A stretch of 64,000 nucleotides of DNA from Thermoplasmata archaeon (GCA_021817415.1 JAKAUZ010000003.1:186001-250000), one strand, 5' to 3'; shown: positions 21,475-31,006, numbered from the stretch's first letter. Notes: generated from the sequence alone by a model not told the origin. Numbers and translations are program-made.

Positions 21475-22317
21475 TCAACCCAAAAGCACATAAAGAATGA
21501 GAAAGGACACAATGATGAAAGGGATTGGAAAATTAAATTTCATCATTACTTTATCTTTGAATTCGGGATCGCCCTTTCTCCATAGTGCCATTTGAACCGT
21601 TATTATTGCAGCAACTATTAACACCATTATAATCAGAAGGATACTTGGAAATGAAAAGAAGGTAAATGAAACAAGTGCACCAAAGAACGTTACAACTGCA
21701 GGGATATCCACTCTACCCCTGCAAAGAACAGGAATAGTTTTCATCCCCATAGATGTGTCAAAGAGGTAATCTGAATTCTGGTAAAGTATGTCGAAGGCAG
21801 AAATCCAGAGGGAAACAAAAATCATCAACAGATATGGTCTAACGCTCCCAGGGAATGCATCCTTGCCGGCGACATATCCCGCCAGGACTATAAGGCCAAT
21901 AGAAAAACCAAGGACATAATGGCTGATCGCATGTATCTTCTTTGTCAATGGGTAAAGGTAGAAAAATAGGATTACAATAGGAGAAAGTATCCCAGCAAGT
22001 GTGTTGATTGAAAACGCAACAATCACGAAAATGGAACTGCTTGCGACCAAGGCAGCCTTTGCCTCCCTGAGAGATATCTTGCCTGTGACCAGTGCCCTTT
22101 CTGCGGTTCTTGGGTTAATTCTATCCAGGGGGAGGTCCATCAACCTATTTATGATCATGCCAGAAGTTCTTGCACTTATGCCTGCAATTCCCACCAGAAT
22201 CAGGACCTTGACTGAGAATACTCCCGCTAGCAAAACACCCATGTAGGCGAAGGGAAGGTCAAATGAACTGTGTTCAATCCTTATGAACTTCAGGAACTCC
22301 CTAAGGTCGAATCCCAT
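21475..22317 (-). CDS. UbiA-family prenyltransferase
   Basis: Multi-TM protein with SGMIINRLMDLPLDRINPRTAERALVTGKIS (NxxxD motif). Confidence 0.88.
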   Translation of the reverse strand: MGFDLREFLKFIRIEHSSFDLPFAYMGVLLAGVFSVKVLILVGIAGISARTSGMIINRLMDLPLDRINPRTAERALVTGKISLREAKAALVASSSIFVIVAFSINTLAGILSPIVILFFYLYPLTKKIHAISHYVLGFSIGLIVLAGYVAGKDAFPGSVRPYLLMIFVSLWISAFDILYQNSDYLFDTSMGMKTIPVLCRGRVDIPAVVTFFGALVSFTFFSFPSILLIIMVLIVAAIITVQMALWRKGDPEFKDKVMMKFNFPIPFIIVSFLILYVLLG

Positions 22318-23734
22318 ACCTTTTCAACTTGTCCTTCAATATAACCTCTTCATCAATCTCTATTTTCTCAGGCCAGGGTTTCTGGATTCCCTCACTTCGT
22401 CCCTTGATGGTTGCATCTATTATCATCTTCCCTCCCACATCCGGGAAAATGGAGGAATGGTCGAGTGAGTCGGATGGAGCCATTCTTATGATTTCAATGT
22501 CTCTGGACGGATCAGTTCTGGTAGCAACCGCCCAGAGGACTTCTTTCCTATCTTGGACATTAATGTCTTCATCCACCACAACAACATACTTTGTGAACAT
22601 CATCTGTCCACTAGATAGGATGGACATTCCCACCTTCCTCCCCTGGCCAGGATATCTCTTTTTTATGGAGACGAAAACAACATCATTGAATAATCCCTCC
22701 TCGGGGAGGAAAATATCATTGATTTCAGGTACCTGAAATTTTATTGCGGGGAGGAATATTCTTTCTATAGCTCTTCCTATAGGTACGTCTTCACTCCATA
22801 TTTTTCCCACTAAGATGGAATGGTAAATGAAGTCCTTGCGATGGAATATTTTAGTTATGTGAAAGACTGGGTAGAGGTCAACAGGGGTATAGTATCCAGT
22901 ATGGTCGCCAAACGGGCCCTCCTCCCTAGTCTCATCTGGATCGACAAATCCTTCTAATATTATTTCGGAAGTTGCAGGATATCTCAGGGATACGGTCTCT
23001 CCCTGCACCACATTATGTTTCTCGTTGCTCAGGTAGCCTGCAAATGCCATCTCATCAATTCCTTCAGGAAGCGGGGAGACTGCTGAAAAGAGAATTGAAG
23101 GACTGACCCCAATCGCCACAGCCACTTCCAGTTTCTTTCCAAGTTTCTTTGCTTTCTTGAGATGCATCGCACCTGTTTTCTGGGTTTGCCAGTGCATCCC
23201 TGTCGTCTCTCCGTCAAAAACCTGCATTCTATACATCCCGGCATTATAGACACCTGTTTCAGGGTCCCTAGTTATTACCACTGGAGCCGTAATGAATCTC
23301 CCTCCATCCTCCGGCCAGTGTTTGAGAATTGGAATATCGTCAAGTGTGATATCCCCCTTGTAATCCTTCACTGGACCATTTCCCACTTGGTTCACTGAAA
23401 AATTCTTGAGTTTGGAAAAAAGTTTCAGCCCATCGAGGAGCCCAGGTTTGCTAAGAAGAGAATCGAATATCCCCTGGAAATCACCAGCGAAATCCTCTGT
23501 TCTTCTTTCCATCACTGATTCAAATCTCTTCATCGTCCCAAATACATTCGTAATAACCGGGTTGGTGAATCCAGAGACCCTATTGAACAGCAGTGCAGGT
23601 CCCTCTTTTCTCTGATAATGGTTGGCAAGGGCTGAAATTTCAAGATCTACACTAAATTCCTCCTCTATTTCTCTTAAATCATTATTTTTCCGAAGTACTG
23701 ATATTGATTCCCTAAGATCTGGCGTCATTCTCAA
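22301..23734 (-). CDS. UbiD-family decarboxylase
   Basis: Family patterns including EGPFGDHTGYYTPVDLYPVFHIT and VVVVDEDINVQD; overlaps ubiA-like gene. Confidence 0.9.
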   Translation of the reverse strand: MRMTPDLRESISVLRKNNDLREIEEEFSVDLEISALANHYQRKEGPALLFNRVSGFTNPVITNVFGTMKRFESVMERRTEDFAGDFQGIFDSLLSKPGLLDGLKLFSKLKNFSVNQVGNGPVKDYKGDITLDDIPILKHWPEDGGRFITAPVVITRDPETGVYNAGMYRMQVFDGETTGMHWQTQKTGAMHLKKAKKLGKKLEVAVAIGVSPSILFSAVSPLPEGIDEMAFAGYLSNEKHNVVQGETVSLRYPATSEIILEGFVDPDETREEGPFGDHTGYYTPVDLYPVFHITKIFHRKDFIYHSILVGKIWSEDVPIGRAIERIFLPAIKFQVPEINDIFLPEEGLFNDVVFVSIKKRYPGQGRKVGMSILSSGQMMFTKYVVVVDEDINVQDRKEVLWAVATRTDPSRDIEIIRMAPSDSLDHSSIFPDVGGKMIIDATIKGRSEGIQKPWPEKIEIDEEVILKDKLKRYGIRP

Positions 23735-24911
23735 CTCCCAATTTTATATCATTTCCACTTATATAACGATAAATGATAAATAGAGCAACTATTCCATACA
23801 CTGGGAAAGAGATCAGGAGGAGGAACAGCTTGTCATACCCGATTACGAGTGCCAGTGGAAGTAGCGAAAGAGGAGCTATGACGTGCCCAGAACTGCCTAT
23901 GAGGGAGAATTCCCAAGTTCCTGTTCCTACTCTTTCCTTTCCGTACACGGCAATAGGCGTGGAGTATATGGGGGAGATAGCTAAAGCCTCCGACTGAATA
24001 AGTAGTACACCAAAGAGTATCATGATGCTGCTTGAATGCAAGTACATCAAGATGAATCCAGGGATGGAAAGGGAATACCCAATAATTCCCACAATCAAAA
24101 GTGAGTTAATACCATGTAATTTTGAATACAATAAATATGCGGCCGCACCGCCAAACACCGTTGCAATTGCCCCCCAAGTGCCGAAAATAGTCATGGCACT
24201 TGAAATGATTGCGGGGGTGGAATAAACCGGGATGTATAAAGGCAAGATAACTGCCAGGGTGAGATTAAACCCTGCAATAGTCATCCAGAGTAGTCCATAT
24301 ATCCAGGTAAATTTGAAACCATATGTGCTCTTTGAGACCTCATCCTTCTCAAAGGATTGACTACCTCTAAGCAGAGATACAAACGGAACGAGTGAAATGA
24401 CCCCAAGAGCAGGTATTAAAATGAATGAAAGTTGAATTGGAAGGGAGACTGCAACGAGTGAACCAAGTGTCACGCCCGAAGGTATACCACTTATGGAAAT
24501 TGCTGATGCAGCACCTCTCTGTCTTTCGGTGAAAAGGAATGAATAAGCTATTGAATATATTTCCATCACAAAGCTTGAAGTTCCCTGAATGAATCTCAGG
24601 ATGAGGAATGACACAAGTGAATGGACGTATGGCAGAACAATTATAGTTCCTATGATCACGAGAAACATGAGAAGGGTGTATAATGAAGCGTTCCTGTGGA
24701 ATTTCATTATCCTTCCAAGTATTTTTCCAAATGGCATACCTGCGAAATAAACAATTGTGATAAGCATCACAAAGGAACTGCCATTCATAGGATTTCCCAA
24801 ATTTCTCAAGAATACTGGGGCAAGGAGAGTCACTGATGACAGGACACTGAAAATTATTGCTGTAGTTATAAATCCAACAAATGGAAGAGAGATCAATTTC
24901 CATTTTTGCAT
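23712..24911 (-). CDS. MFS transporter
   Basis: Roughly 12 TM segments; overlaps UbiD-like start. Confidence 0.78.
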   Translation of the reverse strand: MQKWKLISLPFVGFITTAIIFSVLSSVTLLAPVFLRNLGNPMNGSSFVMLITIVYFAGMPFGKILGRIMKFHRNASLYTLLMFLVIIGTIIVLPYVHSLVSFLILRFIQGTSSFVMEIYSIAYSFLFTERQRGAASAISISGIPSGVTLGSLVAVSLPIQLSFILIPALGVISLVPFVSLLRGSQSFEKDEVSKSTYGFKFTWIYGLLWMTIAGFNLTLAVILPLYIPVYSTPAIISSAMTIFGTWGAIATVFGGAAAYLLYSKLHGINSLLIVGIIGYSLSIPGFILMYLHSSSIMILFGVLLIQSEALAISPIYSTPIAVYGKERVGTGTWEFSLIGSSGHVIAPLSLLPLALVIGYDKLFLLLISFPVYGIVALFIIYRYISGNDIKLGVENDARS

Positions 24912-25946: not shown

Positions 25947-26999
25947 TCAGGTCCTGGGTGCTCCGCATTCAGGGCACGTTTGTGCTGTTGAATCTATTAA
26001 TGCCCCGCAGTAACTGCACTTCACCTTAACCACTTCCTTGATCACGATCTGTTGGACTGGAGGCTGTTTAGGAGTGAGATCTATTGTGGGAGCTCCGGTA
26101 ACCGGTTCAGGACGATCTGGCGGTGGATATGGTACCTTGTTTTGGGCAGCAGGCTCGCCAGAATGTTTTGGAAGATGCTCTCTTTTCTTCCTTATCAGTA
26201 TGGCCATCGCTATCACCACTATTACTGCTACGGCGGCTATGGCTACCCCTGTTATTACAAGTGGCGAAAGATTGGATTGAACTGGTGAGGAGCCTGTGAA
26301 TGGAGTAAGGGGATAGCTGGTGGAATTCACATATAGAATGTCGGTATAGGTGAAACCACTTCCAGAGGAATTGGAATCGTGTTCTAAGTACTGATACCCT
26401 AGAATGTATCCCGTGGACGGGTCAAAGTACGTATCCCAGGTGTACTGTGCGTTAAAAATACCATAAGAATCATTCCTCAGATATGAAGACGATCCCTGGG
26501 CAAAAATTGATTTCACATTCCTGTTTTGCGATGGCAGATGGTAACTGTAATCCAGTGAGGAGACAGTCATTTCTGTATTCAGGAGGTAGAACGTTCCACC
26601 CACCGGGATCGTATTGTTCATGTAAAACCACACGGTGGGATTGACGTAACCAGTCTGATCATCTGTTCCATTAAGATACAGGAAAGAATCTGAAGAAAAG
26701 GTATAGTTTCCAGAATATTTCCCGGTTTCCGTCTGCCCTGTGCTGTTTCCCCATATGTACGAATAATTGTAGTGTGCAGAAACAACTCCATTCCCGCTGA
26801 CCGAATTCATCACTTCCTTCCCACTAATGGTCATATGCTCCGTATAGCCTTGGTAATTTCCAGTACCATTGGCGAGATTCACTATTTCGTAATAAGTGAA
26901 ATAATCGCCCTGTCTGGGAGTATAATGCACAGATGGTGCTGCAGGACCGAGAACAAGGGCAGCAGTGACAATTATCAGGAGAGATAGTTTATGAATCAT
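25947..26999 (-). CDS. Membrane protein: signal peptide, extracellular domain, TM helix, cytoplasmic C-terminal zinc ribbon
   Basis: Signal-like N-terminus; TM LSPLVITGVAIAAVAVIVVIAMAILIRKKRE; C-terminal CSYCGALIDSTAQTCPECGAPRT. Confidence 0.75.
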   Translation of the reverse strand: MIHKLSLLIIVTAALVLGPAAPSVHYTPRQGDYFTYYEIVNLANGTGNYQGYTEHMTISGKEVMNSVSGNGVVSAHYNYSYIWGNSTGQTETGKYSGNYTFSSDSFLYLNGTDDQTGYVNPTVWFYMNNTIPVGGTFYLLNTEMTVSSLDYSYHLPSQNRNVKSIFAQGSSSYLRNDSYGIFNAQYTWDTYFDPSTGYILGYQYLEHDSNSSGSGFTYTDILYVNSTSYPLTPFTGSSPVQSNLSPLVITGVAIAAVAVIVVIAMAILIRKKREHLPKHSGEPAAQNKVPYPPPDRPEPVTGAPTIDLTPKQPPVQQIVIKEVVKVKCSYCGALIDSTAQTCPECGAPRT

Positions 27000-28564
27000 C
27001 CTGAGAAACCTCCGACTCCGTGGACATGGGCTGGGTGAAATCCCCCAATCCCGCTGAATGTGGAATAGTAAGAGGAATGTGCCACTATCATTGGAACGTA
27101 ATAGACGAAAAATGCGTTGGATGGCATATATGTGAATTGGATCGGGGTGTTTGTTATTCTTGCAGTCGGGTCCAGATCCTTCACCAGTTCATTCTTGATT
27201 CCATGAATCATTCTGACTGAAAGGCTAAGAAGTTCCGACCGTTCCAGTCCCTTTGAAACTTGTCCAAGCACAGAGTAGGCCTTCTCAAGCAGATCCAGAG
27301 TTTCATTCGCCTCGAGGACCTGTATTGAAGCCAGTACGGCTGCCGCAACCAGTGGGTATTCAAGGTATGCCTTAAGCCCGTTTACTATGATTGTCAATTT
27401 TGCACTGACATCCTGAGGTGAAAAACCGGATGCAGAAAGGAAGGCAGATGCAAGTTCCGTATCATCCGACATATGGTAGCCCCATGAAGAGAAAAGGGAC
27501 CTGAAAGAAAGAAATCTATTTGTCAATTCTTCTACTGGTGATTTTAAGACAGAGAGGACAGCAGCAGATTCATATGAGGAGGTCACTGAGGCAAATTGAG
27601 AGAAACGGTCAATCGGATATGTTCCGTCGAACTTTCTCCCAAACAATATTATTGCTGCGACTCCAGCAGATAATTCATTTGGTACTTTTAGATGATGCCT
27701 CAGTTCATGGTCAAGATTTTCCAGGTTCAAAATCAGCTGGTCATAGCTCATTTCCTGTGGTCGCTGACTGTCTGTAGACACCATTGACGTGATGATCTCT
27801 GCCGCCATCAATTTATTATCAAAAGTGGAATGGAATTTCCGCAACGTTTCGTATGCCTGGATGAATCTCCTGTAAATATCTCCCGGCTGACCCTGCATCT
27901 TGGCCAGTCCAATCGAAGTTCCCCAAAGCAAAGAAATATCGCCCTCAGGGAAGCTGCTTGCCAGGTTGGTCTCGTGAATCCTGCTATTTTCCGCAATGGA
28001 TTTCAGTTCATTTGAAGTCTCCGAGATCTCATCCCTGAAGGTGGAGAATTCTTCCTCTGAAACCCTGTAGTTCCTTACGTTCAGATCGCTTAAAGTTACT
28101 GTTCCAAGGCCAGTAAGCGAAACGAATTTATCACCAAATGGAACCATTCTATCCAGTACTGATTTCTTCTGTATCAGGTCCCTTATAACAGATTCCCTGG
28201 AGCTGATCTCTGTCTTTTCCTTCTGCTCCCTGTTAGCTATTTCCTTCATCTTTTCAATTTCTGATTCCCTCTTTTCCCTTCCCTCAAAATGAAACAGTAT
28301 GGAATGAGTCTTCATTTCTTCTTCTTCAAGAGATGTCTCCAACCCCCTCTCTTCCATTGTTTCCTTCTGCTGTTCCTGAGTTGCTTCCGCGAGGGCAGCG
28401 ACGTCGGAAGACATCTGATCATACTGGCTCTTATCCATAAGTATTATGTACCCATTTGTAGCGAGGTATTCAAGATCCTGCGGCTGAACTTGCACAGATA
28501 TATTCCTACCAGATACCTGGGAAAAGAAATTCCTCACATCTCCGCATTTCATGACCATTACCAA
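26996..28564 (-). CDS. Hypothetical protein, coiled-coil plus alpha-helical C-terminal region
   Basis: 522 aa; Glu/Lys-rich coiled-coil-like segment (EEEEMKTHSILFHFEGREKRESEIEKMKEIANREQKEK), then helical domain; 4-bp overlap with the zinc-ribbon membrane protein gene. Confidence 0.7.
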   Translation of the reverse strand: MVMVMKCGDVRNFFSQVSGRNISVQVQPQDLEYLATNGYIILMDKSQYDQMSSDVAALAEATQEQQKETMEERGLETSLEEEEMKTHSILFHFEGREKRESEIEKMKEIANREQKEKTEISSRESVIRDLIQKKSVLDRMVPFGDKFVSLTGLGTVTLSDLNVRNYRVSEEEFSTFRDEISETSNELKSIAENSRIHETNLASSFPEGDISLLWGTSIGLAKMQGQPGDIYRRFIQAYETLRKFHSTFDNKLMAAEIITSMVSTDSQRPQEMSYDQLILNLENLDHELRHHLKVPNELSAGVAAIILFGRKFDGTYPIDRFSQFASVTSSYESAAVLSVLKSPVEELTNRFLSFRSLFSSWGYHMSDDTELASAFLSASGFSPQDVSAKLTIIVNGLKAYLEYPLVAAAVLASIQVLEANETLDLLEKAYSVLGQVSKGLERSELLSLSVRMIHGIKNELVKDLDPTARITNTPIQFTYMPSNAFFVYYVPMIVAHSSYYSTFSGIGGFHPAHVHGVGGFSG

Positions 28565-29727
28565 TCCAGGATTGGGAATTTACTAATTAATCTTTGTTCA
28601 CCAAGGATGTTTCCAATCTCAAGAAATAATGTCTGTCCGATAACTTCTGGTCTGACAATCTTATCATCCACCAGTGCATCCTTTACAATCTGCTCAAACT
28701 CAATTTTCCTATTGGTCTTGTTCCGGAATCTCTTCTCTCTTTCACGCTCAATCTGTTCATAGGCAAACATGAATTCATAAAGTGACCTGTAAATCTGGTC
28801 ATCAATCTTTTCTGCGATTTCATTTTCCTTTACTGTAATCCATTCCAGACCTTCCAGGTCTACAAAATAAATTGTGCCGTCAGGGGCCAGCACCGCATCT
28901 TTGTCAAGCCAGACGTCATAAAAATCATAACCGCTATAAGTTCCGTTTCCGTTCCATCTCAGGGTACGGGTGAACAATGTAAGGTAAGCAATTCCGCTTT
29001 TGACAAAATTCCTCAGGAACTCGAATGCCTTCTCATCACTGTCTATGCCAAACTTGTCGAATATGGCACTGACATTCCCTCCTATGGTACTTCCTGAGTG
29101 GAAATATATCCTTACGTTTGAGGGAATGAGCCTCACTTCCTGAACAATTCTACCTGGAAATTTCCTGTACCAGTAGATTTTCTTTATGATGCTTTCTAAT
29201 TCAGGAGGAAGCAGGCTTATCATGATAAGTGGAGCAAACCTGAAGCCATTAATTGAAGTCATATCAGCAAACTCAGAGACTTTTAAAGAAGTGGTCGCGT
29301 GCTGGAGTCCCTGTCCACCGTAGGGAGAGCCTCTAAGCCACAATTCTCCGGTGATGAATCTGGGTGGAGCTGAATTTTGTCTGATGAAGGAATCTGCCAG
29401 ACCCCGAATTCCAGTTAGAACCTCTATTTCTCCGAGATCCATTAGCTGATGAGAAAAAGGGCTCATCATTGAACCAACTCCCTTTACTGAGAGGTAAAAA
29501 TCAGTGTTCCTGATAGTCAAGGCTGGTTTTGAAAAAACAGCTCCCCTGTTATCATCTTCAATGAACTGTTTATCGTCTTTACATTCCTTATCTGTGAACG
29601 AGGACATGCTTTCGGGCAGATACATCATTCTGAATCCAGAAAGATCATAGTCCCTGAAATGTTTGTTTACTATCGTTTCAGGGTTCTCGTACTGCTTCAA
29701 TTTTAGTGGCATTCCACTCATGATCAT
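28558..29727 (-). CDS. Hypothetical protein of unknown fold
   Basis: 389 aa; 7-bp overlap with the 522-aa gene; contains YDVWLDKDAVLAPDGTIYFVDLEGLEWI. Confidence 0.7.
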   Translation of the reverse strand: MIMSGMPLKLKQYENPETIVNKHFRDYDLSGFRMMYLPESMSSFTDKECKDDKQFIEDDNRGAVFSKPALTIRNTDFYLSVKGVGSMMSPFSHQLMDLGEIEVLTGIRGLADSFIRQNSAPPRFITGELWLRGSPYGGQGLQHATTSLKVSEFADMTSINGFRFAPLIMISLLPPELESIIKKIYWYRKFPGRIVQEVRLIPSNVRIYFHSGSTIGGNVSAIFDKFGIDSDEKAFEFLRNFVKSGIAYLTLFTRTLRWNGNGTYSGYDFYDVWLDKDAVLAPDGTIYFVDLEGLEWITVKENEIAEKIDDQIYRSLYEFMFAYEQIEREREKRFRNKTNRKIEFEQIVKDALVDDKIVRPEVIGQTLFLEIGNILGEQRLISKFPILDW

Positions 29728-29819
29728 TTCCTATCAACATTTCTTCAGAGTGGCAAAAGTAATAAACTATTTGCTGGCCTGGTCATTTATAGTTTAGAGA
29801 ACATAGTGCGAACCAGAAT

Positions 29820-30788
29820 TCATTTTGGGACATAGTAGGTTTCGATCGAATCAATAATAAGTTTAGCCATACCCCTATATGCCTCATTGATTTCATCTGT
29901 GCCCTTGAGGAAGTTAGATAGTTCGCTATTATCTAGGTAATAAGTGTTGTAGGATTCCTTGCCATCGAAATCACACGAATGCCATAATGCCGGTGACATT
30001 CTTTTCTCCTCTATGTCAAATATGTCGTTAGATATCTTTCCCAGCCTCACATCTTCAGTAACGAACAAATCTCCTCTCCTGATCCTATACTGGTCTTTCA
30101 GGGAGTGTTCACTCTCACACTCTCCCAAAGAGAACCTGATAGTTCTCACAAACCCATTTCCAGCATCTGGCATTTTCAGATCAAAATGGAATGGATGTTT
30201 GTACAGAGGCGCATTCTTGAGATATTCAGCATTGAGTATCTCTCTCTCCTTCAGTTTAACCACCTCCTTTGAATACCTGTATTCTTCCAGGAACCAATGG
30301 AGGTAGTGAGGTCTTCCAAGATATTCAATCATCAGCTCGCTTTCCTTGTTCCCTTCCCTCTCCTTTGCAGCCTCAAGCAGGAAATCAGAAACTGCATCTA
30401 GGTTTTCCTCAAGGAACAGGAACCTCCAGTATTCTCTCTTACCCTTTATAAGATGATATGATCCTCCGATCACTCCTGGTATATCCAGCAATTTTCTGGT
30501 ATTATAAGTTAGTCTCTTGAAAGGATCTGATTCAGGATAAGGTAGGTATTCGGAACCATAGGAACCAACAACAGAACCCTTCTGAATTTTCATCAGTTTC
30601 TCGTAAAAATCACTGTCAGTAGGGTCAATTTTCAAATAGAATTTATTAGTTCTTTGATCATAAAAAGCTGGCACTGAATAGCTAGGGTTCCCGCTTACAA
30701 CACTGAAGAAAGGACATAGTCTTGAAAGTATCAATTCATAATCGAAAGATGACTCAGGGTGGGTATTAGATCGAGAGAGCTCTTCCAC
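29820..30788 (-). CDS. Hypothetical protein
   Basis: 322 aa soluble ORF, same strand, 92 bp upstream of the 389-aa gene. Confidence 0.65.
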   Translation of the reverse strand: MEELSRSNTHPESSFDYELILSRLCPFFSVVSGNPSYSVPAFYDQRTNKFYLKIDPTDSDFYEKLMKIQKGSVVGSYGSEYLPYPESDPFKRLTYNTRKLLDIPGVIGGSYHLIKGKREYWRFLFLEENLDAVSDFLLEAAKEREGNKESELMIEYLGRPHYLHWFLEEYRYSKEVVKLKEREILNAEYLKNAPLYKHPFHFDLKMPDAGNGFVRTIRFSLGECESEHSLKDQYRIRRGDLFVTEDVRLGKISNDIFDIEEKRMSPALWHSCDFDGKESYNTYYLDNSELSNFLKGTDEINEAYRGMAKLIIDSIETYYVPK

Positions 30789-30914
30789 AATGTTATATTG
30801 CTGGCTTAATATTTATTTGTTATTACATGTTATACATCATAAATAATACTAAGGGTAACAGAAAATCTCTTCACGAACAAGTATTTAGAAATTTCATACT
30901 GATGACCACATAAA

Positions 30915-30989
30915 TGCTCCGGCCGGGATTTGAACCCGAGTCGCCGGCTTGAAAGGCCGGTATGCTTGGCCGGACTACACCACCGGAGC
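30915..30989 (-). tRNA. tRNA-Glu (anticodon UUC)
   Basis: Minus strand: GCTCCGG-TG-D arm-CCGGC-CTTTCAA-GCCGG-CGAC-TCGGG-TTCAAAT-CCCGG-CCGGAGC-A; acceptor stem pairs fully; loop CTTTCAA gives UUC; CCA not encoded. Confidence 0.95.
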
Positions 30990-31006
30990 AGACATAAGGA
31001 AATAGG

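Follow-up and report, generated by a model that had tools for sequence, protein, structure and literature searches.

A conserved archaeal gene set pairing a membrane ectodomain protein and a GNAT acetyltransferase with a putative kinase-like-fold enzyme

Introduction

In protein kinases the metal-binding residues, N171 and D184, are spaced 13 residues apart. Hydroxamate siderophore loci typically have a GNAT partner, and IucB acetylates an amine in siderophore synthesis. A published kinome survey (PMC9758233) counts IucA_IucC, the domain of the NIS siderophore synthetases, among the members of the Pfam protein-kinase clan and describes SelO as having the kinase fold. The NIS synthetases (IucA/IucC, PF04183; e.g. 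DesD, AlcC and AcsD) and the protein adenylyltransferase SelO (PF02696), which AMPylates proteins, are AMP-forming members of this fold. Also pertinent are RimI (TIGR01575), a protein acetyltransferase of the GNAT type, and the archaeal membrane proteins that carry a zinc-ribbon tail.

The locus considered here recalls each of these in part. It comes from a Thermoplasmata archaeon and lies in a window of 64,000 nucleotides, this being the whole stretch of DNA that was analysed (GCA_021817415.1, JAKAUZ010000003.1:186001-250000). The original prediction was of a cassette of four minus-strand genes (A, B, C and D) specifying a membrane-linked multi-protein unit of undescribed function. All four open reading frames are present (Table 1), and the general idea is supported by conserved linkage and by the topology of D; judged by its conservation, though, the real unit is B, C, D and a further gene, E, without A. 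A literature search with several sets of words, subscription journals being mostly outside its coverage, retrieved no description of the B-C-D-E gene set, which is apparently undescribed.

Table 1. Features of the locus, with positions counted from the first nucleotide of the window
Feature	Position	Strand	Description
E, 262 aa	25124..25912	+	GNAT acetyltransferase, 34 bp from the end of D and convergent with it
D, 350 aa	25947..26999	-	single-pass membrane protein, C-terminal zinc ribbon
C, 522 aa	26996..28564	-	cytoplasmic coiled coil plus all-helical protein, conserved HPxHVHxxGGFxG tail
B, 389 aa	28558..29727	-	putative protein-kinase-like-fold nucleotide-dependent transferase
A-B gap, 92 bp	29728..29819	-	TATA-like CTATAAAT about 60 bp before the ATG of B; candidate B-C-D promoter
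A, 322 aa, GTG start	29820..30788	-	Ta1207-like; judged not part of the system

Gene boundaries and the exclusion of A

That B, C, D and E are real, constrained genes is argued by their divergence from relatives, which falls mostly at third codon positions (0.59-0.68, vs 0.19-0.40 at positions 1 and 2). Of the overlaps proposed earlier, that of 4 bp between C and D (ATGA) is real, but the 7 bp between B and C would need a TTG start that is not conserved among relatives. Since the relatives of C start, on alignment, at a later ATG (MKC..., 28552), and since the end of B and the start of C meet in a TAATG junction at 28558, the true overlap is probably 0-1 bp and the true start of C is likely the ATG at 28558 or 28552. 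The TATA-like sequence ahead of B could be the promoter of a B-C-D operon.

The inclusion of A in the cassette is contradicted by that box and the gap in which it lies, by the absence of A relatives from the 40 B loci examined within the class, and by the presence of A-like genes in five copies at five places in the window's genome; a four-gene cassette containing A was rejected on the latter two. A matches the Ta1207 family (PF19020) at E 1.6e-4, below the cut-off, and this weakly Ta1207-like family is a lineage expansion. Directly adjoining A is a tRNA-Glu(ttc) gene (window 30914-30990), and short stretches resembling this tRNA region recur elsewhere in the genome, at several sites, of which several are near contig starts.

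A unit kept together

A search with B found relatives in 46 of 300 Thermoplasmata-class genomes, one of them judged spurious (E 4e-4, over a short stretch), leaving 45 with a genuine B. In the great majority of the class loci inspected, where the contig is long enough, B is adjoined by C and D. Both are again present in a wider scan that gave 80 B loci, in records whose titles name Thermoplasmata, Nitrososphaerales, other Thaumarchaeota and Bathyarchaeota. Among complete loci (n=102) the three genes are always co-directional, with none split or inverted: 88 are ordered B-C-D, 12, from Nitrososphaerota/Bathyarchaeota, C-D-B, and two D-B-C. The last order is that of what is here termed type II. 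Its C is often too diverged for the first C profile, which recognised it in the two loci just mentioned; six more loci have D-B, and in six further type II loci a C-like ORF follows B, with HPVHVH or a similar end in the sequences inspected.

Clustering of neighbouring ORFs yielded one recurrent family, in 94 loci, the GNAT acetyltransferase E, so that the cassette boundary formerly placed at D left out a conserved partner. E is convergent with D in 79 of the 81 B-C-D loci with room for it (in one of the two exceptions, which was checked, it is about 12 kb off on the same contig), and it follows B on the same strand in every C-D-B locus with room. In type I Thermoplasmata and Bathyarchaeota it is on the opposite strand, outside the B-C-D operon, a point against a joint complex. 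Across the same 300 genomes an E profile found E in 43 of the 45 with B, the other two having B on fragmentary contigs, and in none of the 255 lacking it. The hypergeometric p of about 4e-50 overstates independence as the genomes are related, yet the separation is complete. Among the other recurrent ORF clusters, some had the look of antisense shadows, the genomes being GC-rich, and the rest seemed to be ABC ATPases or repeat proteins without a fixed position.

Could this be a chance neighbourhood of unrelated housekeeping genes? The different strand of E might be so taken, and A is a genuine chance neighbour, but three gene orders with the same members, the extent of co-occurrence and the fusion of D with E in nine loci (below) make this so improbable as to be negligible. 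Gene order and co-occurrence together show B, C, D and E to be a unit kept and inherited together in several archaeal lineages. Synteny, which had been proposed as a check on the cassette, thus bears it out for B, C and D far beyond Thermoplasmata, but not for A, and the cassette as drawn omitted E.

D and E: a membrane protein and an acetyltransferase

Hydropathy gives D a signal peptide (6-24) and one membrane helix (251-269), and B, C and E no membrane helix. All ten N-glycosylation sequons of the D ectodomain are on the outside; beyond the helix there is a Pro-rich linker and then the C-terminal zinc ribbon (C328/C331/C342/C345). The earlier picture of an extracellular domain, one transmembrane segment and a terminal zinc ribbon is hence borne out by hydropathy, sequons, cysteine positions and Pfam. 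The tail resembles those of other archaeal zinc-ribbon-tailed membrane proteins in matching PF13248 (E 3.4e-7) and PF13240, both above the cut-off; D differs from them in that the ectodomain (29 D sequences aligned) matches no Pfam family. Look-alikes of the tail elsewhere in the genome are weak (E 2e-3 or worse).

E is a GNAT by its match to PF00583 (E 5.5e-11, 43 bits against a cut-off of 20.7), and its acetyl-CoA loop is intact (R-G-M-G-I-G, in FRGMGIG, with R205 and G208 conserved). Its nearest NCBIfam family is RimI, whose GNAT core and acetyl-CoA loop recur in E and in the type II fusion, though the scores, 28.2 bits for E and 43.6 for the fusion, are far below the cut-off of 86.4. Two features set E apart from RimI: an extra N-terminal half of about 130 residues, and its tie, or outright fusion, to a membrane protein.

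An extreme in this regard is type II, whose D, about 530 aa, has the ectodomain and membrane helix of type I, but a GNAT domain where type I has its zinc-ribbon tail. Across nine such loci the E profile covers nearly its full length in the cytoplasmic half of D (E 5e-28 to 1e-48), Pfam calls GNAT in both of the fusions scanned, and beside the fusion loci there is no separate E. As these loci carry both proteins as one polypeptide, D and E act together, and theirs is the sole physical linkage within the unit that the sequences show. The acetyltransferase of the fusion is predicted to be inside the cell, and it is plausible that the type I zinc-ribbon tail is a docking site for E.

B: a putative kinase-like fold

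Searches with B (phmmer, hmmsearch) gave no match in Pfam, NCBIfam, PADLOC or the PDB. That A, B and C lack any recognisable motif had been part of the original prediction, and B and C are indeed without a family match, but a kinase-like catalytic loop in B had been missed. Alignments of 39 sequences, type II included, and of 76 were made, and an AlphaFold2 model from the 76 natural sequences has a pLDDT of 92.2 and a pTM of 0.91. Foldseek matched it to DesD (7tgj, E 1e-4, prob 0.99), SelO (6eac, E 8e-3, prob 0.87), the ROP5 pseudokinase and protein kinases. The top 50 matches are mostly NIS synthetases, SelO, ROP pseudokinases and kinases, with one at E<0.001 and TM-scores mostly 0.2-0.4, low values with which the kinship of B to solved kinase-fold structures would be distant at most.

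The motifs of B are K82GxG85, P202-S-N-x-R206 and the loop D271xxxD275-K-D277-A-V-L-A-P-D-G-T-x-Y-F-V-D290-L-E-G. In the 39-sequence alignment K82, G83, G85, D275, K276, D277 and D290 are invariant, and DLEG is present in nearly all. B has the lysine and two metal-ligand residues of a kinase, with 13 residues from D277 to D290. Invariance at these seven positions favours an active enzyme over a pseudo-enzyme. Model and motifs support, without proving, a protein-kinase-like fold whose nearest members are the AMP-forming NIS synthetases and SelO, with a nucleotide/metal site that looks intact; B therefore probably uses ATP.

The two best local blocks in hhalign place 'YLSVKGVGS..PFS' and 'RLIPSNVRI' of B on 'LKGAGRTPYSR' and 'RVAPSHLRF' of SelO, colinear with the SelO motifs and in the same order, and both proteins have a D-containing catalytic/metal loop. 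However alike the two are by eye, a profile comparison of B with ten sequences of SelO falls short of significance (P 0.055-0.12, at a probability of about 1%). The SelO HMM gives nothing in the window's genome at E<=10, while matching in 5 control genomes; the gene context of B is different; and where SelO has NTDN...DYGP, B has DKD...DLEG (invariant LDKD ... D290), the TDN...DYGP pattern being absent. B as a SelO was accordingly rejected. So too was B as a NIS synthetase: the PF04183 HMM finds nothing in the window's genome at E<=10, nor, at E<=0.01, in 147 genomes from the phylum, and B is roughly 200 residues shorter. A NIS-like ORF in a relative (L180) is a different protein from B, and Haloferax NIS genes were not found in the stretches of pHV4 inspected. 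B is assigned to neither family, though its mode of action may be like theirs.

A reading that takes the NIS likeness further is that of a small-molecule pathway at the membrane, in which B, as a shortened ligase of the NIS-synthetase kind, would adenylate a carboxylate and join it to an amine, E would acetylate the amine, and D and C would handle or sense the product. Metal acquisition would be an example, with the HPxHVH tail of C and the zinc ribbon of D binding metal. To be set in its favour are the occupancy of most top Foldseek places by NIS synthetases, the conserved histidines of the C tail, and the GNAT partner usual in hydroxamate siderophore loci. Besides the silence of PF04183, however, there are no siderophore genes nearby, no transporter or monooxygenase is conserved beside the cassette, E occurs fused to an ectodomain protein that crosses the membrane once, and the nearest family to E, albeit below the cut-off, is a protein acetyltransferase. 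We regard this pathway as unlikely.

C and its short paralogues

For C, aligned in sets of 32 and of 68 sequences, no significant family-wide match emerged from Pfam, NCBIfam, PADLOC or the PDB; an FhaA_N hit on C (E 0.06, below the cut-off) and hits of DUF1598/DUF5788 to single relatives, two or three in number, were treated as noise, not being reproduced across members. The AlphaFold2 model (pLDDT 86.6) has a long coiled coil, an all-helical remainder and a disordered tail, in support of the coiled-coil and helical protein predicted. The HPxHVH in that tail is conserved in types I and II. No significant fold match to the model was found in the PDB (best E 0.12). Of what Foldseek had been expected to clarify, C is thus left without a significant match, and B points, weakly, to a protein-kinase-like fold.

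Genomes of family f13 also have short C paralogues, about 400 aa, without the coiled coil and without the HPxHVH tail. They (loci L210-L219, e.g. L211:6785-8489, +) are preceded by a small, conserved membrane protein with the ending KPKQGVGA, and their loci are flanked by two giant surface-repeat proteins, one with CarboxypepD_reg repeats and the other with InlB/BNR repeats. This is a second undescribed conserved surface locus. Such a position, behind a membrane protein and between giant surface proteins, hints at membrane or surface proteins as working partners of the C family.

From it, and from the glycosylatable ectodomain of D, maturation or assembly of envelope proteins could be considered, with D and C serving the building or modification of surface proteins that B and E modify before or during export. 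As no surface-protein gene is conserved beside B-C-D-E, and as the short paralogues, lacking two features of C, may differ from it in role, a function of this type seems to us improbable.

Distribution and history

The unit reaches Nitrososphaerota and Bathyarchaeota, and in a tree of B the window's copy and two relatives group with the Nitrososphaerota/Bathyarchaeota clade (support 100), apart from other Thermoplasmatota. Identity to the closest set, of that affinity, is 53-65% for C, 52-62% for D and about 46-51% for E, and is mostly lower to other Thermoplasmata. With all four most like the same lineages, it is as if they had moved together; the data are consistent with transfer of the whole unit between phyla, the alternative being loss elsewhere. 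A deep-branching pair of Thermoplasmata B sequences (L139, L146) is in loci that keep C, D or a D fragment, and E. Next to E in the window (21475-24911, -) is a compact cluster of a UbiD-family decarboxylase, an MFS transporter and a prenyltransferase-like membrane protein, which is not conserved with the cassette.

A patchy distribution (3 of the 15 genomes of the window's family) and a copy grouping with another phylum are what might be expected of a defence or stress system, in which kinase-like and acetyltransferase effectors would be gated by the membrane protein. But for A-E there is no relevant match to a PADLOC model, that of D to a zinc ribbon being weak (E 0.053); B has no relatives in plasmid and viral-contig collections, and in a phage search one marginal, partial match (E 0.4, 33% coverage); no defence genes are conserved nearby, there is one B per genome, and the catalytic residues are invariant. 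The defence suggestion made earlier is therefore very unlikely.

Possible function

The reading preferred, if tentatively and with rather less than even confidence, is of a single membrane-anchored complex with four components, B, C, D and E, that modifies proteins. In such a complex the ectodomain of D would sense or bind something at the cell surface, and its cytoplasmic tail, in type I the zinc ribbon, would recruit E. C, whether as helical scaffold or as substrate, would bring B to the membrane. The reaction of B would be nucleotidyl or phosphoryl transfer, or else acyl ligation driven by ATP, and that of E the RimI-like acetylation of a protein amino group, in either case on C or on shared target proteins; that the substrates of B and E are proteins is itself inferred. 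The state of the surface would thereby be linked to protein modification in the cytoplasm.

More specific, and somewhat unlikely as it stands, is the proposal of an undescribed archaeal transmembrane system in which an ectodomain protein and a cytoplasmic GNAT are coupled, either fused or through a zinc-ribbon tail, and work with a new family of kinase-like-fold enzymes and a helical scaffold. Surface conditions would be relayed to protein acetylation and nucleotide-dependent modification by an acetyltransferase receptor, not by a histidine or Ser/Thr kinase.

Should it be correct, a receptor-like acetyltransferase module and a new kinase-fold enzyme family would be present across several archaeal lineages. 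With co-occurrence near perfect and D fused to E in type II, the partners to be tested are clear, and, archaeal surface signalling being poorly understood, the module would bear on it.
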